Shown: positions 3,088 through 24,984 of the stretch, in pieces
Position numbering within the stretch: the stretch's first letter is position 1
How the letters are laid out: each line of letters begins with the position of its first letter
NCBI RefSeq assembly: GCF_026005215.1
Contig: NZ_BPMA01000006.1
Coordinates: forward strand, 1 to 49,670
Origin: Capnocytophaga catalasegens
Lineage (GTDB): Bacteria > Bacteroidota > Bacteroidia > Flavobacteriales > Flavobacteriaceae
DNA: 49,670 nucleotides
Direction: 5' to 3'
Position numbers and translations under genes: made by a program
Notes under the pieces: model-generated
Databases searched by the model: none
Told to the model about the DNA's origin: nothing
The model's input: only the letters and a program-made list of their open reading frames with translations

Positions 3088-4155
3088 TTATAAAGTATTT
3101 ACATTATTTAAGTCTTCAAAAGCTTTTTTCATACGAACGACAAAAGTTTTTTCTCCTTCACGAAGCCAAACACGAGGGTCATAGTATTTTTTGTTAGGGG
3201 CGTCAGCACCTTCCGGATTTCCTATTTGTCCTTGCAAATAGTCTGCTTTATTCTTCATATAATCACGAATTCCTTCGGTAAAAGCATATTGCAAATCAGT
3301 ATCAATATTCATTTTTACTACTCCGTACGAAATGGCCTCACGTATTTCTTCAACAGAAGAACCTGAGCCTCCGTGGAATACAAAATCAACCGTATTGTGA
3401 GGTACTCCATATTTTTGAGAAATGTATTCTTGCGAATTTTTCAAAATTTTGGGAGTAAGTTTTACATTACCTGGTTTATACACTCCATGTACATTACCAA
3501 ATGAAGCCGCAATAGTAAATTGAGGGCTTATTTTAAGTAATTCTTCATAGGCATAAGCAACTTCTTCAGGTTGAGTGTATAGTCTTGATTCATCAACATC
3601 GGAATTATCAACCCCATCTTCTTCACCTCCTGTGATACCCAATTCTATTTCGAGGGTCATTCCCATTTTGCTCATTCTTTCCAAATATTTTTTACAAAGC
3701 TCAATATTTTCTTTGAGAGGTTCTTCAGAAAGGTCAATCATATGTGAGCTAAAAAGAGGCTTGCCTGTTTCTTTGAAGTGTTGTTCAGAAGCATCTAAAA
3801 GTCCGTCAATCCAAGGCAATAATTTTTTTGCACAATGGTCTGTATGAAGAATTACAGTAGCTCCATATGCTTCTGCTAACTGATGTACGTGTTTTGCTCC
3901 TGCGATAGCTCCCAATATAGCTGCTTTTTGTCCATCGTTAGAAAGTCCTTTTCCGGCAAGGAAAGAAGCACCTCCGTTAGAAAATTGTATAATTACAGGT
4001 GCATTGAGTGTTGCGGCTGTTTCCAAAACAGCATTGATACTATCAGAACTGATTACATTAGCAGCTGGTAGTGCAAATCCTTTTTGCTTTGCATATTGGA
4101 AAATCTCTTGCACTTGTTTGCCTACTGCTACTCCGGGTTTAATGTTATGACTCAT
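3088..4155 (-). CDS. fbaA: Class II fructose-bisphosphate aldolase
   Basis: Zinc-dependent aldolase that cleaves fructose 1,6-bisphosphate to dihydroxyacetone phosphate and glyceraldehyde 3-phosphate in the cytoplasm, in glycolysis and gluconeogenesis. The 355-residue length matches the class IIA (FbaA) type. Visible signatures are HTDHC at about 104-108 (catalytic Asp106 and zinc ligand His107), the acidic motif EIELGITGGEEDGVDNS near residues 170-185, FGNVHGVYKPGNV around 220, and FVFHGGSGSS (phosphate binding and zinc His) around 260. The gene is intact and stands alone. A TATATTTG -7 box lies upstream on the minus strand at 4184-4191, and a strong terminator follows. Confidence 0.97.
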   Translation of the reverse strand: MSHNIKPGVAVGKQVQEIFQYAKQKGFALPAANVISSDSINAVLETAATLNAPVIIQFSNGGASFLAGKGLSNDGQKAAILGAIAGAKHVHQLAEAYGATVILHTDHCAKKLLPWIDGLLDASEQHFKETGKPLFSSHMIDLSEEPLKENIELCKKYLERMSKMGMTLEIELGITGGEEDGVDNSDVDESRLYTQPEEVAYAYEELLKISPQFTIAASFGNVHGVYKPGNVKLTPKILKNSQEYISQKYGVPHNTVDFVFHGGSGSSVEEIREAISYGVVKMNIDTDLQYAFTEGIRDYMKNKADYLQGQIGNPEGADAPNKKYYDPRVWLREGEKTFVVRMKKAFEDLNNVNTL

Positions 4156-10240: not shown

Positions 10241-11536
10241 ATGAAAAACTTCATACAAGAATTACGATGGCGAGGAATGATTCAGGATATTATGCCTGAA
10301 ACGGAACAACATTTATTAGAAGGCGTACGCTCAGCATATATAGGCTTTGACCCGACAGCAGATTCGCTACACGTCGGACATTTGGTAGGGATAATGATAC
10401 TTAAACACTTCCAAAACTGCGGACACAAACCTTACGCTTTGGTAGGTGGTGCCACAGGAATGGTGGGCGACCCTTCGGGGAAATCTATCGAAAGAAACCT
10501 TTTGACCGATGAGATTTTGGCTAAATATATTGCTGGAATTAAGAAGCAGTTGTCCAAATTTTTGGATTTTGAAAGCAAAGCCGAAAATGCAGCCGAAATG
10601 GTCAATAACTACGACTGGATGAAAGATTATTCGTTCTTAAACTTCATTCGTGATATTGGGAAGCACATTACCGTAAATTATATGATGGCGAAAGACTCTG
10701 TGAAAAAGCGTTTTGACCCTACCGAAAACACTGAGGGAATGTCGTTTACCGAGTTTTCGTACCAATTATTGCAGGGATACGACTTTTTGCACCTCTATCG
10801 AGAAAGAGGTTTGACGCTCCAAATGGGAGGCTCTGACCAGTGGGGCAACATCACTACGGGAACGGAACTTATCCGAAGAATTGCAGGAGGAAAGGCGTAC
10901 GCAATGACTTGTCCGCTCATTACCAAGGCTGACGGAACGAAATTCGGAAAATCGGAAGGTGGCAACATTTGGCTTGACCCTGAAAAAACATCGCCGTACA
11001 AATTCTACCAATACTGGCTCAACACATCAGACGCCGACGCTGAAAGATACATCAAAATATTCACAATGCTGACGCAAGAGGAGATAAAATCGTTGGTAAC
11101 ACAGCACCAGGAAGCACCGCACCAAAGAGCCTTGCAAAAGAAACTGGCTGAGGAGATTACGGTGATGGTTCACTCACGCGAAGATTATGACAACGCCGTG
11201 AAAGCCTCTGAAATTTTGTTTGGAAATTCTACTTCTGACGATTTGAAAACACTTGATACCAATACATTTTTAGAAATTTTTGAAGGTGTTCCGCAGAAAG
11301 AAGTAGCAAAAACGGAAATTATCGGAGCGAATATTGTAGATATTTTATCGCAAAAATCAGGCTTTTTAAAATCGAAAAGTGAAGCTCTTAGGGAACTGAA
11401 AGCCAATTCTATTTCCCTTAATAAAGAAAAAATAGGTGAAGATTTTATTCTTTCCGAAAATGACCTAATCAATGGAAAATTTGTTCTTATACAAAAAGGG
11501 AAGAAGAATTATTTTATTGTGAAAATAATTATGTAA
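10241..11536 (+). CDS. tyrS: Tyrosyl-tRNA synthetase
   Basis: Class I synthetase charging tRNA-Tyr; 431 residues, the usual length. The Rossmann core has [16 protein letters not shown] (HIGH-type motif) near 35-50, a tyrosine-binding region, [12 protein letters not shown] near 195-206, and KFGKSEGG (KMSKS-type motif) near 235-242. A C-terminal S4-like RNA-binding domain begins at about 365. Base composition falls sharply inside the gene: lines near 10800 are about 55 percent GC, and lines after 11340 are near 32 percent. The last 20 codons are nearly repeated at 13345-13401, beyond a foreign gene pair, which suggests the present 3' end or gene was imported. Confidence 0.97.
11477..11536 (+). 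repeat. tyrS 3' end, copy joined to the live gene
   Basis: The last 20 codons of tyrS. The first 39 bases match 13345-13383 at about 35 positions. See the displaced copy there. Confidence 0.8.
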
Positions 11537-11592: not shown

Positions 11593-12213
11593 ATGATTCC
11601 TGAAACACTATTAAATATAAAAAATTATCTCATTGAAAGCAATTTGCATCTGTCCTCTCCTTTAAAAGATGGACGACTGAATTCGTCTTTTAATGAAGAT
11701 GAAATTATAAATATTCTCAAAACAAAATTTAAAATAAATGAGCCTAATAGTCGCCAATGGTTCGATTTTAGTTTTGAAGAAAAAGGAGATTTTTTTCCTG
11801 TTAATATAAAGGTAACTACTACAAACACAGCAGATAATTTGAACTGTAAATTAGGAATTTATTATGCACTTACAGGCTTACTTCCCGATTTTTCAAATGG
11901 AATAGATTGGCTTAATTATTTTGAAAAATTAAAAGAGAATTTAGGTACAAAAATAGATAAAGATTATTATTTTTTGATTATCAACAAAGAAGCACCCGAA
12001 GATGTTTTTGTAAATACTTTAAAAGGAATTAAAACTCTTTAACCAAACGGAAACAACCTTCCTTTTCAATGCAAATGGAATGATAATAAAGAGTTTAAAA
12101 AACGAACTTTTGAACAAAGTAGAGATTTTATTCTTTCCAAATTTGGTGAAAGTATAAGGTTGCGTGCAGATATTTATTTTAATTTTAAACGCCTCTTTTC
12201 AGAATATGTATAA
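11593..12213 (+). pseudogene. Putative type II restriction endonuclease, in-frame stop
   Basis: ATG 11593 opens 149 codons to a TAA at 12040-12042. The same frame then stays open for 56 more codons to TAA 12211-12213, so one nonsense change separates a natural C-terminal part (CKWNDNKEFKKRTFEQSRDF). The N-terminal part has a plausible PD-(D/E)xK-type core: WFDFSFEEKG followed by FFPVNIKVTTT, with a preceding acidic helix. Its 3' end overlaps the methylase ATG (12206) by 8 bases, a usual restriction-modification arrangement. The role as cognate nuclease is inferred mainly from that overlap, and the exact family is not recognised. Confidence 0.6.
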
Positions 12214-13346
12214 TGTAGAAAGTTTAGGGCAAGTTTTTACCCCTGTGCACATCGTTTCTGAAATGCTTTCTCTTAGAAAAAATAACGGAAATGTATTAGA
12301 ACCTTCCGCTGGGAATGGTAGTTTTTGGAGTCAAATATCTAATTGTATTGGTATTGAAATTGATGAAAAATATTGCCAAAAAGGAATGCTAAATATGGAT
12401 TTTTTTGATTATCCTATTGAAAATCAATTTGATACTATTATCGGAAATCCTCCTTATGTAAAACACAATAGCATAGATGTTCAAACGCAAAAAAATTAGA
12501 TTACACACTTTTTGATGAGCGAAGCAATTTGTATTTATTTTTTATTGAAAAATAGAGGAGAATTGATATTCATCACACCTCGTGATTTTTTTAAATCAAC
12601 TTCAAGTATCAAATTAAACCATTTTATTTACAATCAAGGAACAATTACTGATTTGATTGACTTGGGAGACAGCAGAATATTTGAAAATGCACAACCTAAA
12701 TTGTATTATTTTTCGATTTGAAAAAGGTGATTTTTCGCGAAAAACAAATATAACTAAGCAATTTATCTGTAATAACGGACAATTATATTTTACAGATAAT
12801 CAATATTCCGTCTCTTTATCAGATATTTTTAGTGTGAAAGTAGGAGCTGTTAGTGGTTTTGACAAAATTTACAAGAATGAAGAGTATGGAAATCAAGATT
12901 TTGTAACTTCAATAACTCGAAAAACAGGCAAAACGCAAAAAATGATTTTTGTAGAGCAACCAACAGAGTATTTAGAAAAGAATAAAAACGCTTTAATCAA
13001 TCGAAAAATAAGAAGTTTTAGCGAAAATAATTGGTGGGAATGGGGACGAAAACATCATATTTCAGACAAAAAACGGATTTATGTCAATACCAAAACACGC
13101 AATAAAGAACCTTTCTTTATAAACGATTGTAAAAATTACGATGGTTCTATTTTAGCTTTATTTCCTCATAATCAAGAGCTTGATATTGAAGAATTGGTAA
13201 TAAAATTAAATAAAGTAAATTGGTTTGAACTCGGATTTGTTTGTGATGGACGCTATTTGTTTTCACAAAAAAGTTTAGAAAATACCATACTACCAAACTC
13301 TTTTTTAGCATATAAACATATTAGCCAACTTACTCTTTGGGATTGA
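12206..13346 (+). pseudogene. N6-adenine DNA methyltransferase (gamma class), frameshifted
   Basis: It starts MYNVESLGQVFTPVHIV, with the N-terminal GQVFTP motif of TaqI/Eco57I-like enzymes, followed by VLEPSAGNGSF (AdoMet-binding motif I) and IIGNPPYVK (catalytic motif IV, NPPY). The frame stops at 12497-12499, continues in another frame as LFDERSNLYLFFIEK, jumps back near 12545 to LKNRGELIFITPRDFF, and shifts once more near 12700 into a long C-terminal part ending at 13346. At least three indels make it inactive. The catalytic motifs survive in the first fragment. It is the second gene of the inserted restriction-modification unit. Confidence 0.8.
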
Positions 13347-13401
13347 ATTTGTCCTTCTACAAAAAGGGAAAAAGAATTATTTTGTAATTATTGTAAAATA
13401 G
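13345..13401 (+). pseudogene. Displaced 3' end of tyrS
   Basis: Codons reading [18 protein letters not shown] and stop mirror the live tyrS ending [19 protein letters not shown]. The fragment directly follows the methylase remnant. It is best explained as the resident tyrS tail left behind when DNA carrying a tyrS tail plus the restriction-modification genes recombined in. Confidence 0.8.
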
Positions 13402-19521: not shown

Positions 19522-19959
19522 ATGAAACAAATTTTTATTTTTACAATGATTTTGGCAGGAATAGTAACTTCTTGCGGGAAAAATGATGATTCTTCTTCGA
19601 CTAATTCAGCGGGTACTTATACCGTAAAGGCAACGATAACAAACGGCGGTGTGCTTTACGGAGGAACTATCTACATAGATACCGAATTGGGTAGTGATAA
19701 ATCACGTGATTATTCTGTTTTTACAGACGAACATATGAAGAGTATGATTAGCAAAACAGAATGGGAAGGCAGTTATGATGTTAAAAAATCTATCTCGGTA
19801 CAGATTAACGCTCGGACAATGGGGAGTAATACTTTGACAGAAAACTCTGTTCTGAGAGTTACTATCCTCAAAGATGGAAAAGAAATAACAGCTGGCGAGC
19901 AAAAAGGAATTGGCGATGCAACTGGGGTAGTAGCAGGAACAAACATTATTTTACCATAA
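19522..19959 (+). CDS. Small surface lipoprotein with CGKNDD motif
   Basis: 145 residues. Signal MKQIFIFTMILAGIVTSC, with the lipid Cys at about 18 followed directly by GKNDD. In Capnocytophaga, a Lys and acidic residues directly after the lipid Cys direct lipoproteins to the cell surface, so surface exposure is inferred. The rest is a predicted beta-rich domain (TYTVKATITNGGVLYGGTIY) with no recognised family. The N-terminus closely resembles the lipoprotein at 22292, on the other side of mnmG. Confidence 0.8.
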   Translation: MKQIFIFTMILAGIVTSCGKNDDSSSTNSAGTYTVKATITNGGVLYGGTIYIDTELGSDKSRDYSVFTDEHMKSMISKTEWEGSYDVKKSISVQINARTMGSNTLTENSVLRVTILKDGKEITAGEQKGIGDATGVVAGTNIILP

Positions 19960-19980
19960 CTCAGAATTTAGTGTATAGGT

Positions 19981-20055
19981 CAAAACTTTTAAAGTTTTGG
20001 GATTAGGTTGTTAGTTTTTTTTAATCTTAATCCCTAACTCCTATTCCCTAATAAC
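19981..20055. repeat. Inverted repeats between lipoprotein and mnmG
   Basis: CAAAACTTTTAAAGTTTTG (19981-19999) is a perfect palindrome, and a second pair GGGATTA / TAATCCC brackets a T run. The first can terminate the lipoprotein transcript. Confidence 0.5.
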
Positions 20056-20061
20056 TAAATT

Positions 20062-21933
20062 ATGTTTACACAAAAATACGATGTTATTGTAGTGGGTGGT
20101 GGACACGCAGGAGCCGAAGCAGCGGCGGCGGCGGTCAATATGGGAGCAAAAACCTTGCTCATTACAATGCAATTGCAAAATATCGCACAGATGTCGTGCA
20201 ACCCAGCGGTAGGAGGTATCGCCAAGGGACAAATCGTGCGTGAGATTGATGCTTTGGGCGGATATACAGGCATCATCACCGACAAAACGGCCATTCAGTT
20301 CAAAATGCTCAACCAGTCCAAAGGGCCAGCGATGTGGAGTCCTCGAGCTCAGTCTGACCGAATGCGATTTGCCGAAGAATGGCGTCTGCAACTCGAACGA
20401 TTGCCTAATCTCGACTTCTATCAGGATATGGTTTCCGACCTAATCATCGAAAATCATCAGGTAAAAGGCGTAAAAACTTCTTTGGGAACTCCTATTTATT
20501 CCAAAACCGTGATTCTTACTAACGGAACATTTCTGAATGGAGTTATTCATATTGGAATGAAGCAGTTAGGAGGAGGAAGAGCGGGTGAAAAGGCTTCCAA
20601 AGGCATTACCGAATGCTTGGTTTCTTACGGATTTGAAGCAGGAAGAATGAAAACAGGAACACCTCCGCGAGTGGATAGCCGTTCGCTTGATTATTCCAAA
20701 ATGATTCCGCAACCTGGTGATGAAAATCCAGAGAAATTTTCCTTTTCGGAAGAAACACAACCGCTTAAAAATCAGAAGGATTGCCATATGACCTACACCA
20801 GTGAGGAGGTACACGACCTGCTCCGTACAGGATTTGACCGCTCACCGATGTTCAATGGGGCAATTCAGGGCGTGGGGCCACGTTATTGTCCTTCAATTGA
20901 GGATAAAATCAACCGATTTGCCGACAAAGACCGCCATCAAATTTTTGTAGAACCCGAAGGTTGGAACACGGTGGAGGTGTATGTAAATGGATTTTCAACA
21001 TCGCTTCCAGAAGAGGTTCAGTTTGAGGCACTTCGTAAGGTGGAAGGCTTTGAGAATGTGAAATTCTTCCGACCAGGGTATGCCATTGAGTATGATTATT
21101 TTCCGCCAACGCAGCTCAAACATACGTTGGAGACAAAACTTGTTGAAAATCTGTATTTTGCAGGACAAATCAACGGAACAACGGGCTATGAAGAGGCTGC
21201 CGCACAAGGAATTATGGCAGGAATTAACGCTGTGCAGAAAATTCGTGAGCAAGAGCCTTTCATTCTGAAACGAAACGAGGCTTACATTGGTGTTTTGATT
21301 GACGATTTGATTACCAAAGGAACGGAAGAACCTTACCGAATGTTCACTTCCCGAGCGGAATATCGTACCCTTTTGCGACAAGACAACGCCGATGCACGAC
21401 TTACGCCTCTTGGTTTTTCATTGGGATTGGCATCACAAAAAAGAATGGACATTTTGGAAAAAAAACAAGCAAAAACGAATGCTTTTGTGGAGTTTTTCAA
21501 GGAAACGAGCATCAAACCCGAAGAAGCGAACCCAATTTTGGAAAAATACGATTCGTCTCCAATGAAACAAGGCGACAAAATGTTCAAAGTGCTTTCGCGT
21601 CCAAACATTACCATTGCCGATTTGCAACAATTGGAGAGCGTAAAATCATTCGTGGAAACCAATGAAATCGATAAAGAAGTCATCGAACAAACGGAAATCG
21701 AGGTAAAATACGCAGGATACATTGAAAAAGAAAAGAACAATGCCGACAAACTTAACCGCTTGGAAGACATTCGCATACCTGAAAATTTCAATTACGACAA
21801 GCTGACCTCTATTTCGTTTGAATCTCGCGAAAAGTTGAAAAAAATTCGTCCGACAACACTCTCACAAGCCTCGCGTATCAGCGGCGTTTCCCCAGCAGAT
21901 ATTAGTATTTTGCTAGTGTATATGGGGAGGTAG
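20062..21933 (+). CDS. mnmG: tRNA uridine-5-carboxymethylaminomethyl enzyme MnmG
   Basis: FAD- and NADH-dependent subunit that, with MnmE, modifies the wobble uridine of several tRNAs. 623 residues, full length. FAD-binding VVGGGHAGAEAA (about 9-20), the CNPAVGGIAKG signature (about 47-57), GTPPRVDSRS near 207-216, GQINGTTGYEEAAAQG near 370-385 and a helical C-terminus ending ADISILLVYMGR are present. The gene is much richer in GC than its surroundings (the line at 20101 is about 60 percent GC). Two extra copies of its 3' end lie downstream at 22801-22836 and 23432-23557, so it is likely an imported allele. Confidence 0.97.
   Translation: MFTQKYDVIVVGGGHAGAEAAAAAVNMGAKTLLITMQLQNIAQMSCNPAVGGIAKGQIVREIDALGGYTGIITDKTAIQFKMLNQSKGPAMWSPRAQSDRMRFAEEWRLQLERLPNLDFYQDMVSDLIIENHQVKGVKTSLGTPIYSKTVILTNGTFLNGVIHIGMKQLGGGRAGEKASKGITECLVSYGFEAGRMKTGTPPRVDSRSLDYSKMIPQPGDENPEKFSFSEETQPLKNQKDCHMTYTSEEVHDLLRTGFDRSPMFNGAIQGVGPRYCPSIEDKINRFADKDRHQIFVEPEGWNTVEVYVNGFSTSLPEEVQFEALRKVEGFENVKFFRPGYAIEYDYFPPTQLKHTLETKLVENLYFAGQINGTTGYEEAAAQGIMAGINAVQKIREQEPFILKRNEAYIGVLIDDLITKGTEEPYRMFTSRAEYRTLLRQDNADARLTPLGFSLGLASQKRMDILEKKQAKTNAFVEFFKETSIKPEEANPILEKYDSSPMKQGDKMFKVLSRPNITIADLQQLESVKSFVETNEIDKEVIEQTEIEVKYAGYIEKEKNNADKLNRLEDIRIPENFNYDKLTSISFESREKLKKIRPTTLSQASRISGVSPADISILLVYMGR
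21807..21933 (+). repeat. mnmG 3' end, copy 1 (live gene)
   Basis: Reference copy of a triplicated gene tail. The final 36 bases are almost the same as 22801-22836, and the whole 127 bases align with 23432-23557. Confidence 0.85.
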
Positions 21934-21956
21934 CACCGATAGGCGATGAATTGTAG

Positions 21957-21976
21957 GGAAAAGATATATCTTTTCC
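21957..21976. repeat. 20-nt palindrome after mnmG
   Basis: GGAAAAGATATATCTTTTCC is perfectly self-complementary and lies 23 bases after the mnmG stop. It may end the mnmG transcript or act as an operator for the promoter that follows. Confidence 0.5.
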
Positions 21977-21994
21977 GTTGAGTTGAAGTAAAAT

Positions 21995-22025
21995 TTTGAT
22001 TATCAAATTTATTTTTCTACTTTTG
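21995..22025 (+). promoter_or_regulatory. Consensus promoter of the structured RNA
   Basis: TTTG (21995-21998), exactly 19 bases, then TACTTTTG (22018-22025). This is an ideal Bacteroidetes promoter; transcription would begin near 22031. The next coding start is more than 260 bases away. Confidence 0.8.
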
Positions 22026-22030
22026 CCTTG

Positions 22031-22240
22031 AAATATTGGTCAATATTATAATATCAAAAGCGTTAGCTTGTTATTCTACCATAAAAGAGAATCTGGTAAA
22101 TTCAATCAACGAAACGTGGAATAAGTAAGCCGAGACGCTCACGCCGTATAGCGTGGACTTTTTCTCCTTATTTATATGTTTCGTAGCTTTACCAGAGGCT
22201 TCTTTTGTGAATAAATAAGAGTTAGGCCTCACGCTTTTTT
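22031..22240 (+). ncRNA. Candidate structured RNA of about 200 nt, 6S-like rod
   Basis: Nested complementary segments form one long rod: AAAAGCG 22056-22062 with CGCTTTT 22232-22238; TTATTC 22071-22076 with GAATAA 22209-22214; AAGAGAA 22085-22091 with 22200-22206; TCTGGTAAA 22092-22100 with TTTACCAGA 22188-22196; CGAAAC 22110-22115 with GTTTCG 22178-22183; ATAAGTAAG 22121-22129 with CTTATTTAT 22167-22175; and an apical hairpin CACGC-CGTATA-GCGTG 22140-22155. It has an ideal promoter upstream and a T tract at its end. There is no open frame of note. The size and rod shape with internal bubbles suggest a 6S-type RNA that mimics an open promoter, or another family such as flavo-1; neither is proven. 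Confidence 0.65.
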
Positions 22241-22291
22241 TATTTTAGTAACTTCACTTTGAGGCTGAGTGAATTAAAACTTTATAAAACA

Positions 22292-22726
22292 ATGAAAAAT
22301 ATTTTAAAATTGGCTTTGGTAACTGTGAGTATGTTGGTGGTTTCTTGTGGGAAAAATGATGATACCCCAACAGAAAATGCTCGTATTCTAGGTACTTGGA
22401 AACGTGTTAAAACAGAAGATGTAAAAGACGGAAAAAGAGTTAATCCACGAGATGTAAAAGATGATGATTGTAGCAAATACGTTTTTACCAATAAAACATT
22501 AACTAATTATTATCCAAGGGAAGAAGATAATAAATGTGTTACAGAGGAAAAGCCTTACAGAATAAAAAATGGAAGAATCTATTACAAGGAATATAACGAT
22601 GAAAAAGGCAAGTATGAAGATAATGATTTTCAATTCAATTTCATAGACGATGATACATTTGAAGAAATTGAAAATAATTCTAACGGAGCAGATGGAAGAG
22701 TAGATATATACAAGTGCGTTAAATAG
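22292..22726 (+). CDS. Small surface lipoprotein, lipocalin-like
   Basis: About 144 residues from ATG 22292; an upstream in-frame TTG at 22259 adds residues before the signal and is rejected. Signal MKNILKLALVTVSMLVVSC, then GKNDD directly after the lipid Cys, as in the lipoprotein at 19522. The body starts with a lipocalin-like ILGTWKRVKTEDV motif and has many charged residues and a pair of Cys residues. It is probably surface-exposed. It lies between two copies of the mnmG 3' end and so looks like acquired cargo. Confidence 0.78.
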   Translation: MKNILKLALVTVSMLVVSCGKNDDTPTENARILGTWKRVKTEDVKDGKRVNPRDVKDDDCSKYVFTNKTLTNYYPREEDNKCVTEEKPYRIKNGRIYYKEYNDEKGKYEDNDFQFNFIDDDTFEEIENNSNGADGRVDIYKCVK

Positions 22727-22747
22727 TTCGCTTATACTAAAATCATA

Positions 22748-22781
22748 AAAAAGATTATTGGTTAATTCCGATAATCTTTTT
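22748..22781 (+). terminator. Terminator of the 22292 lipoprotein
   Basis: Stem AAAAAGATTATTGG / CCGATAATCTTTTT with loop TTAATT, ending in a T run. Confidence 0.8.
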
Positions 22782-22800
22782 AGTTTTGTATTCATCAATC

Positions 22801-22836
22801 GATACCAGTATTTTGCTAGTGTATATGGGGAGGTAA
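22801..22836 (+). pseudogene. mnmG 3' end, copy 2
   Basis: 36 bases encoding DTSILLVYMGR and stop, identical to the live mnmG end at 33 of 36 positions. It stands alone, with no upstream coding continuity. Confidence 0.85.
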
Positions 22837-23045
22837 TTATTCTTTATTACCATAAAATGAGAAAATTTGCTACAATATAAAAGTTATGGAAATAGATAAG
22901 ATTCATCTTTCCTTCTGCTTTTAACTATACATTGGTATACTTTTATATATTTAAAATTTCGGATACAAAAATATTCTTTTCTCAAAGGGAATGTTTTATG
23001 AAATTTGTATATTTGCAATCTAAAATGTATAAAATAGCATAAATT

Positions 23046-23423
23046 ATGAATAGTATAGGCTTAAATCTTCGTAGAATACGAGAGCAAAAAGGACTTTCAC
23101 AAGAATATTTAGCAGATAGATTAGATATTAGTCAAGCGTCATATGCACGATTAGAAAATGAAGACACTAAGATAACAGTAGATAGACTTTTAAAAATTGC
23201 TGAAATTCTTGAAACTGAAGTTACTGATTTTTTTAACACGGCTAATCTTTCTATTCAAACACAAAACAATCACGATAATTCATATGGATATATTCAAAAT
23301 TTGACTATTGATAATAAAGATATTACGGAAAAACTTATAAAATCTTTTGAGGCTCGTTTGAAAGAAAAAGATGAACAAATATCTTTTTTAAAAAATATAC
23401 TATCCAGAAATAATTTTTTATAA
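23046..23423 (+). CDS. XRE-family HTH regulator
   Basis: 125 residues. An N-terminal helix-turn-helix (IGLNLRRIREQKGLSQEYLADRLDISQASYARLE, about 4-38, shown here in parts: LRRIREQKGLSQEYLA and SQASYARLE) is followed by a linker and a C-terminal coiled-coil-like tail (KLIKSFEARLKEKDEQ). It is likely a dimeric repressor or regulator of unknown targets. The gene is intact, with TATATTTG upstream. It is flanked on both sides by partial copies of the mnmG 3' end, marking it as a second acquired module. Confidence 0.82.
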   Translation: MNSIGLNLRRIREQKGLSQEYLADRLDISQASYARLENEDTKITVDRLLKIAEILETEVTDFFNTANLSIQTQNNHDNSYGYIQNLTIDNKDITEKLIKSFEARLKEKDEQISFLKNILSRNNFL

Positions 23424-23431
23424 AATATATG

Positions 23432-23557
23432 CTCTGAATTATTGGAAAATCGTGAAAAGCTGAAGAAAATCTGCTTGAAACTCTTTCACAGGTCTCTTAC
23501 ATCAGTAACGTTTTTCTCGCAGATATTAGTATTTTGTTGGTTTATATGGGTCGGTAG
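23432..23557 (+). pseudogene. mnmG 3' end, copy 3 (diverged)
   Basis: 126 bases that align along their whole length with mnmG 21807-21933, with one net base lost and many synonymous-looking changes; the last 39 bases encode ADISILLVYMGR and stop. It is poorer in GC than the live mnmG end. It is probably the resident tail left from the original mnmG. Confidence 0.85.
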
Positions 23558-23605: not shown

Positions 23606-24309
23606 ATGAAAAACCTAAAACAAATTGATTTTAAGGAGGTTAAGCATTTAATCATAGAAAGTAGCTTTTATTATACATATCAAGATATGCCTTATTTGTT
23701 ATACGAAGGTGACTGCATTTTAGACAAACCTTTTGATTTGGACAATGCTGATTTTCAGGATTTTGCTGCTATTATTATTACGGGTGATTTAACGGCAACT
23801 CAAATTTATAATAGCGAAACTGATGCTTTGTGCGGACTTATCGTTTTTGGGAAATTTGACAGCTCAAAATATACGTGGTTGGCGGACAAGAGATTTTTGT
23901 TAGCAAAAACTTGAATGTAACCGAACTTTATTGAGGAGATTATAATCACGGCGAATTGGTTGTGCAAGGCGAAATCAACATAAATGTATTTATTGCCACA
24001 GATTATTCTTATGATTATAAGCGTTTTCAGGCACAAGACCGTGTGAAAATCAACTATTATTTATGCGATGAAAAAGACGATTCCGATGCCAAAGAAGAGG
24101 GCGAACTGATTAAAAAACTATTTGAAAAAAAGTGTATTTACACAGAATCGGACGAAATTTACAGCTGGGGCAATTGGCTGAATAACGATGTGATATTCAG
24201 TAGATTGTCTAAAAACAAATCAGTTTTATTGCCTGATGAAAAAATCAAAAAGAATTTTGAAGAAGTGGCAAAAACTTGGCTTTTTCCGAATTTTGGAATT
24301 AGTAATTAA
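23606..24309 (+). pseudogene. Broken repeat-rich protein (possible beta-helix)
   Basis: The first part (MKNLKQIDFKEVKHLIIESS to about 23880) runs out of frame; the next part, GGQEIFVSKNLNVTELY, continues in a shifted frame, meets a TGA at 23934-23936 where Trp is expected, and resumes as GDYNHGELVVQGEININVF to 24309. Short repeated turns such as IIITGDLTATQIYN and ELVVQGEININ suggest a right-handed beta-helix or polymer-forming type fold. Function unknown. Its stop codon lies inside the left end of the IS1-type element, so the 3' end may be truncated by that insertion. Confidence 0.6.
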
Positions 24310-24984
24310 GTATAGTTAATTCATTATTTAGCTTAAGCATTAATAAATTTAGACTGTAAATCATCATTTTTAAACCCTTTGTATAGCATTTGGTTTTTCT
24401 TCTAAATCGGGATAAATAATGCCGAGTTCTGCTGTTGTAACTCTCAACCGTATAAGTTTCCGATTTGTTTTGTAGATGCTTTTCAACAGGAATAAATTCT
24501 TTGTAACTTTTCCAATAATCCGTACAATACACCTTTGTTTCTACTTCTTTTATTCTTTCCCAAAACTTTAATCCCGTTTCTGTTGCTCGATTCCCAACAA
24601 CAAAATCAAGGTATCGTTTTCCCTCTCTATCAACTGCAATCCAGACCCAACAGGAGTTTTTTTTGACTGTACATAACTGTGCAATTCGTCTATTTCCACT
24701 ACCGAAACAGGTTTTTCATTCTTTATTTCTTCCAATTGACTGCCGTATTTTTTTATTCAATTCATTACCGCTACGTGACTTACGCCCAGAATTCTTCCAA
24801 TAGAATGAAAACTCAATCCTTCCAAATACATCATCAAACCAAGTCTTCGTTCTGAGGGAAGTTTGGCAGTGGATTTATGGGTAACGGTATAATTCCTTCC
24901 ACAATCTTTGCATTTATATCTCTGAACACCTTTGATAATTCCATTTTTTATTTTGTTTTTGCTTTTACATTTTGAACAATCCAT
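24299..24984 (-). pseudogene. IS1-family transposase, nonsense and frameshift
   Basis: The N-terminal part (MDCSKCKSKNKIKNGI, then RYKCKDCGRNYTV) is the InsA-like zinc-finger and HTH domain. At 24757-24759 a TGA replaces the Trp expected before IKKYG. The frame then runs to an A8 run (T8 on the plus strand, 24657-24664), where a -1 shift is needed to enter the DDE domain (WVWIAVDREGKRYLDFVVG, VYCTDYWKSY, SYNSRTRHYLSRFRRKT). The second lesion could be a programmed slip site, as known for IS1, but the TGA makes this copy inactive. Confidence 0.8.

Follow-up and report, generated by a model that had tools for sequence, protein, structure and literature searches.

How does a core gene come to be followed, more than once, by copies of its own 3′ end with other genes lying in between? 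The question is raised by a 49,670-nucleotide stretch of DNA of the mouth bacterium Capnocytophaga catalasegens (contig NZ_BPMA01000006.1; hereafter the window), which is contig C6 of the 2.9-Mb assembly compared here (G000). The window carries an intact mnmG (gidA) gene of 623 residues on the plus strand (20062..21933; Pfam GIDA), and the last 127 bases of this live gene, tail copy 1, recur in part at two places downstream, each time behind a stretch of cargo. We consider it probable that such copies result from one-sided homologous import of a core-gene end together with cargo, joined non-homologously within the resident tail. The evidence is most decisive at two other genes of the same genome, lepA and tyrS; at mnmG, decay has obscured the signature.

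The three mnmG ends

Tail copy 2 (22801..22836, plus strand) is identical to the live tail at 33 of 36 bases, with an exact core narrowed to 29 bases (22807-22835). Tail copy 3 (23432..23557, plus strand) is decayed and matches at 73% over 117 bases (23442-23557), with small gaps upstream and an alignable start at about 23432. Local alignment, with 500 shuffles as chance control, gave scores of 62 for copy 2 and 106 for copy 3 (shuffle maxima 34 and 36), and 0 of 500 shuffles scored as high for either copy. In addition, nhmmer with a tail profile of the genus recovered both copies in 262 kb (E = 2.8e-5 and 5e-20), and none of 11 control segments of mnmG fell below E 0.1 in the same 262 kb. The recurrence of the tail, noted in a preliminary description of the window, was thus borne out, and all three copies close in frame on SILLVYMGR and a stop, as had been claimed.

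Beyond the three copies, a DNA search of the whole genome with the mnmG tail returned only matches of E 0.17 or worse. A pattern search found three exact tails, and its five further matches with 2-3 mismatches equalled the number given by a reversed control pattern (five). These searches ruled out a dispersed repeat family as the source of the tails. Nor is the triplication common to all relatives, most of which lack extra tails. The relatives are Capnocytophaga genomes, labelled here with G numbers, and each species is represented by one genome.

Synonymous and non-synonymous differences between a live and a displaced end can tell a target duplication from an imported allele. The same base changes were placed at random in 20000 runs for pairs of live and displaced tails at mnmG and lepA. 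In the last 26 codons, copy 3 differs from live mnmG by 9 synonymous and 5 non-synonymous codons (11.8 non-synonymous expected; 0 of 20000 as low), and its last 12 codons show no amino-acid change. Copy 2 is near-identical to the live tail and shares with it a CTA codon found in none of the eight relatives compared, which suggests a recent event or a close donor.

Displaced ends at lepA and tyrS

The lepA gene (Pfam LepA_C; G000:C16) has two displaced tails behind cargo, one of 73 bases and an older one of about 222-257 bases. The first stretch of cargo holds two unnamed genes, and the second holds an MvaI/BcnI-type endonuclease gene, an HTH gene, a DNA methylase gene and an HU-family gene. 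Compared with the live end across the final 198 bases, the older tail (copy 3) has 19 codons with synonymous and 3 with non-synonymous changes, against 14.0 of the latter expected, and 0 of 20000 random placements were as low. The three non-synonymous codons all lie within the first eight. Substitutions in the live gene following a duplication could also be synonymous, but in that period a dead copy would have gained many non-synonymous changes, and none is seen past codon eight; the older tail thus diverged while it belonged to a functional gene. It is 88% identical to the live end, a divergence that resembles the between-species scale, the lepA body of G000 being likewise 88% identical to those of G003 and G002. 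These two nearest relatives share the older base more often than the live base (G003, 14 v 7; G002, 13 v 9), G014 is even (11 v 11), and the older base is the less frequent one in G004 (9 v 12), G005 (7 v 12) and G019 (10 v 11).

A similar pattern was found at tyrS, in the window itself. The live gene (10241..11536, plus strand) departs at its C-terminus from the nearest relatives. It is followed by an unnamed open reading frame (ORF; 11593-12042) and, on the same strand, by a type II methyltransferase in three broken ORFs (12206..13346: 12206-12499, 12515-12721 and 12687-13346). Searched separately, the three pieces matched PADLOC MTase_II PDLC03282 (E = 9.8e-38, 2.8e-20 and 8.4e-93), and Pfam Eco57I was found in the first two, with no Pfam match for the third. 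The displaced tail behind them (13345..13401, plus strand) encodes 18 residues in frame. It agrees with G016, G003 and G002, the nearest relatives by tyrS, at 15, 14 and 15 of 17 residues, whereas the live tail agrees at only 10, 11 and 10. Among 17 relatives (two of 19 were omitted for length), the displaced tail was nearer in 11, equal in 2 and more distant than the live tail in 4, all four belonging to a group ending in FIVKKV. Because the displaced and not the live end resembles the C-terminus of the nearest relatives, the live tyrS end is probably the newcomer. Behind tyrS in 19 relatives and lepA in 18, no tail copy better than E 4e-4 was found (three weak matches; some contigs end early). 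The right-hand genes tested behind lepA and tyrS differ, so these are at most candidate empty sites.

Judged by their codon and residue differences, the displaced tails at lepA and tyrS look like displaced alleles and not like target copies. The latter would be expected from an insertion with long target duplication, in which cargo, typically restriction-modification genes, inserts in a transposition-like manner and copies a target some tens to hundreds of bases long where the gene ends. Such insertions of restriction-modification genes were reportedly described by Nobusato et al. in 2000 and by Furuta et al. in 2010. The anatomy fits: in two reports, restriction-modification gene insertions are flanked by long, variable target duplications on the order of 100 bp (PMC3874152, PMC1643837), restriction-modification genes occur in the tyrS and lepA cargo, and copy 3 of mnmG is consistent with a decayed duplicate. 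However, fresh duplicates start identical and a dead copy changes freely, which is at odds with the 19:3 ratio of lepA copy 3, and a duplicate would not explain why the displaced tyrS tail carries the C-terminus of the nearest relatives. Long target duplication is disfavoured at lepA and tyrS, and as a general account of the scars we regard it as unlikely.

The mnmG site in relatives and its cargo

In the genus set, mnmG was matched in 19 of 20 genomes, and 3 to 17 kb downstream were read in 18 relatives. Clear extra tails were found in this genome (two) and in G005 (one); the downstream regions of the other relatives gave tail matches at chance level only, with G003 suggestive. The order in G005 is mnmG, a SoFic gene (PADLOC E = 1.7e-106), a 57-base tail, a TPR gene, a MutS-like gene and aconitase. 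G019 shares this order but lacks the SoFic gene and the second tail, and is thus a single-copy empty site with the same right-hand genes. The 4 bases at which the two tails of G005 differ leave the encoded residues unchanged, and 95 of 20000 random placements gave as few non-synonymous changes. The serial insertion at the mnmG tail proposed in the preliminary description finds partial support in this occupied and empty pair, with the older tail lying downstream. A mechanism anchored specifically in mnmG did not hold, since tyrS, lepA and a glycosyltransferase gene of the same genome also have displaced tails. Direct, long copies of host sequence therefore flank cargo at mnmG, tyrS, lepA, the glycosyltransferase gene and mnmG of G005.

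Other relatives carry other genes at this boundary. Behind mnmG of G003 lies a GmrSD-type gene, with a candidate tail at +2370 (nhmmer E = 0.019; 0 of 500 shuffles) that is suggestive only, and mnmG of G004 is followed by some 7 kb in which glycosyltransferase, radical-SAM, phosphatase and carbamoyltransferase genes were identified. A degraded tail ahead of the MutS-like gene of G004 looked plausible by eye and was dropped, as 324 of 500 shuffles scored as high. With SoFic in G005, a GmrSD-like gene in G003, 7 kb in G004 and nothing in G019, the 3′ side of mnmG appears to be a variable site that holds defence-type cargo in some species. In its first ~500 bases, mnmG of G005 agrees with that of G019 at 99-100% (L289, L290), with surrounding blocks mostly at 77-95%, probably reflecting recent exchange between species.

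The search was also extended beyond the genus. A 38-residue tail matched 385 of 397 genomes of the family, with a second match in this genome only; the sample held three Capnocytophaga genomes, G005 not among them, and short fragments would escape such a search. At 97 loci behind mnmG, 13 tail rows compared with 38 rows for six control segments, and only those of the window, L106 and L098 stood out (E 1e-10 or better; best control 7.7e-6). L098, from a Fluviicola metagenome-assembled genome (MAG), has tandem non-coding units of ~166 nucleotides behind mnmG (3200-3900); it was set aside because the last 32-33 mnmG bases recur twice inside this array. In L050, a Flavobacteriaceae MAG, a second copy of the end of a stomatin-like gene (by eye) lies 954 bases downstream, on the minus strand (19814-20768 region). 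The 38-base tail copy there is of a different kind, as the match continues past the stop codon.

These sites also bear on site-specific integration, in which small integrase-dependent elements that attach at gene 3′ ends, either mobilised in trans or having lost their integrase, would have left the tails as attL and attR. Gene-preserving insertion at a 3′ end is typical of such elements, and all mnmG copies of this genome and of G005 hold the last 29 aligned bases, a possible core. Against this, no integrase or transposase family was found among 26 Pfam-scanned cargo ORFs (window mnmG, 2; G005, 1; G003, 2; tyrS, 4; lepA, 9; glycosyltransferase gene, 1; G004, 7), with supply in trans possible. 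Moreover, four unrelated genes are used, the copy starts vary (36, 57 and ~126 bases at mnmG; 73 and ~222-257 at lepA), and the C-terminus pattern of mnmG had 0 matches in a collection of viral contigs, so that phage attachment at the mnmG end was rejected. We consider site-specific integration quite improbable. Slightly less credit still is given to a minimal mobile element, in which tail-flanked cassettes move between strains by homologous recombination in both tails and the scar itself arose once elsewhere. Two tails would provide homology on both sides and would explain why the tails are persistently short, and the allele differences at lepA and tyrS are compatible with it, but no second genome was found to carry the same cargo at the same site, a weak test with one genome per species. 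For the SoFic cargo of G005, a search across 20 genomes gave two matches, one of 65% over 1 kb and one of 54 bases, and both lie at other places of the C. catalasegens genome.

The cargo of the window was as the preliminary description had it: copies 1 and 2 enclose a folding RNA and a lipoprotein-like ORF, and copies 2 and 3 an XRE regulator. Cargo 1 (21934..22800, plus strand) has a guanine-plus-cytosine (GC) content of 30.8%. Within its first 100 bases, some segments match sequence that lies 3′ of mnmG in relatives (21934-21958 and 21990-22033 in G016; 21985-22022 in G002), a hint that the stretches behind live ends may be donor chromosome. The structured RNA (22056..22250, plus strand; ~195 nucleotides) forms a long imperfect hairpin with a fold z of -3.9, matched no Rfam family and may be a leader or a small RNA. 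G016 carries homologues of it at two loci and G003 at a single one; two of the three stand alone beside a LysE-like gene (by eye) and one precedes a lipoprotein-like start. Downstream of mnmG in G002 (L105), a transposase-like gene (by eye) sits just after the promoter-like stretch that precedes the RNA in the window. Given this shared stretch, the RNA may once have stood behind mnmG in G002 too. The lipoprotein-like gene (22292..22726, plus strand; 144 residues) was named by eye from its signal peptide and has no Pfam match.

Cargo 2 (22837..23431, plus strand; 24.2% GC) holds the XRE/HTH_3 regulator gene (23046..23423, plus strand; 125 residues; Pfam), which has a 73% DNA match at G000:C12:234112-234514. 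The lipoprotein-like gene, the RNA and the XRE regulator include no proven defence gene. Directly after tail copy 3 lie two adjoining ORFs (23606-24309), perhaps one split gene, and beyond them what is left of a transposase-like gene on the reverse strand (24350-24984, by eye).

A proposed mechanism and its relation to known systems

In the proposed one-sided import, DNA of a related Capnocytophaga carrying the 3′ part of a core gene and the donor's downstream sequence would enter the cell, perhaps by natural transformation. On one side, homologous recombination inside the core gene would give the recipient the donor gene end and its cargo, and on the other a non-homologous join would form within the resident gene end. 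The core gene would be kept whole, as the donor supplies its end, and the resident end would be pushed downstream and then decay. If mnmG followed the same route as lepA and tyrS, as we infer, at least two events would have occurred there, cargo 2 presumably arriving first and leaving the decayed copy 3, and cargo 1 later, leaving the fresh copy 2. The allele pattern expected of homologous import on one side, with the live end coming from a donor, was found at lepA and tyrS, and the ends of unrelated genes (mnmG, tyrS, lepA and the glycosyltransferase gene) serve as sites. ComEC and DprA families are present in the genome, which lends weak support to transformation, as they are also present in 10 and 11 of 14 control genomes.

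Several observations weigh against this mechanism. At mnmG, the 3 differences between copy 2 and the live tail carry a weak allele signature (7902 of 20000 random placements as low), and most differences of copy 3 look derived in the copy. Of the 20 positions within the last 78 bases that distinguish live gene and copy 3, eight relatives have the live base at 13-16 and the copy base at 3-5, so copy 3 appears mostly decayed, towards A+T. The low GC of copy 3, which the preliminary description took as the mark of the resident tail, is hence mostly decay, and the last 126 mnmG bases of 18 relatives range from 35 to 54% GC. The expectation that the tail of empty-site strains would be most like copy 3 also failed, as the identity of near relatives to the live tail (82-91%) exceeds that to copy 3 (72-76%). 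Furthermore, the empty G019 carries the live base of G005 at 4 of 4 differing sites, so that either tail may be the newcomer there, and the identity profile of G005 and G019 across mnmG indicates frequent exchange with no clean import boundary. At lepA, the differing codons of copy 2 (73 bases) are synonymous in 3 cases and non-synonymous in 1 (1072 of 20000 as low). The HU-family gene of the lepA insertion sits behind lepA in 5 of 18 relatives (G002, G003, G011, G015 and, in part, G014); this could be a hint of imported donor chromosome, but as the nearest relatives G002 and G003 have it there, the gene may be resident. The promoter-like part of the cargo 1 flank likewise matches places other than mnmG in G014 and G015 and is not mnmG-specific. 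In addition, the displaced tails are all short, about 30-260 bases, where random junctions along a gene would give longer ones; recombination may have removed the longer repeats and left the short scars.

The frequency of gene-end copies belongs among these points. Downstream recurrence was scored for 360 ORFs of at least 100 residues in 450 kb of the genome. Six ORFs had tail matches in a first count, compared with 3 for the middle, 4 for the head downstream and 4 for the head upstream as controls. Two of the six were dropped, one a tandem whole-gene pair in which head and middle match too (C12:191999-192958) and the other a 20-base match (C16:16137-18476). The stricter count left 4 tail-only, 2 mid-only and 2 head-only copies, a small within-genome excess. 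The four control copies comprise a whole-gene paralogue, a long gene matching at two stretches, a head copy of 143 bases, and, in a gene of 303 bases, a 153-base match that reaches the gene end and may itself be a tail copy. No tail-only copy was seen in 324 ORFs of G002, nor in 337 of G007 after three matches were removed as paralogues (two in long open frames, the third judged by eye), and 79 non-Capnocytophaga loci gave 2 in 1173 ORFs, one of them a tandem array and the other a repeat that extends beyond the stop. The excess of 4/360 over G002 and G007 together (0/661) and over the non-Capnocytophaga loci is modest (p = 0.015 and 0.03). Given this modest contrast and the mid-only and head-only copies in the same sample, the case rests on the look of the copies and not on their count. 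The four genes with a tail-only copy are mnmG, tyrS, lepA and a glycosyltransferase-like gene (L194, G000:C12:111257-112009), whose displaced end lies behind another glycosyltransferase gene; the phenomenon is therefore not confined to defence genes.

The literature search returned no paper on gene-end scars in Capnocytophaga among the matches listed, and several known systems come close to what was found here. Minimal mobile elements of Neisseria place alternative cargo beside fixed core genes by homologous recombination, with no recombinase. The variation of cargo at one core-gene boundary, seen at mnmG in relatives, is shared with them, whereas here the anchor is one gene end and earlier ends are kept downstream as scars. 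Integrative elements that attach at the 3′ ends of genes likewise leave the gene whole, with a copy of its end at the far side. The intact gene and the gene-end copy on the far side are common to both, and the present sites differ in the lack of an integrase in the scanned cargo, in the use of several unrelated sites and in having no fixed copy start.

Homology-facilitated illegitimate recombination (PMC3240628) joins linear incoming DNA by one homologous and one non-homologous end and yields kilobase-scale insertions. The proposed import shares the two unlike ends, the linear DNA and the kilobase insertions; it differs in being seen here as genome scars, whereas the known process features junction microhomology of 3-10 bp and a matching deletion. 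Insertion with long target duplication is the nearest in appearance, with cargo enclosed by direct copies of host sequence that are long and variable, restriction-modification genes featuring prominently and no known element attached (PMC3874152, PMC1643837, PMC4978471). In contrast, the copies here are gene 3′ ends and can be stacked, with three tails each at mnmG and lepA, and the downstream copy at lepA and tyrS is a diverged allele and not one identical at birth.

How small defence and restriction-modification systems move without an element has been an open question since long flanking copies were first noted. We tentatively suggest, as a possibility short of an even chance, that what has been taken for long target duplication is instead allele displacement, with core-gene 3′ ends acting as recombinase-free docking sites for cassettes that bring their own gene ends, and with stacked ends forming a record of acquisitions dated by synonymous divergence and decay. 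If this were widely true, gene-end scars would mark a route by which defence genes move with no recombinase and would preserve, as fossils do, the sequence in which those genes arrived.

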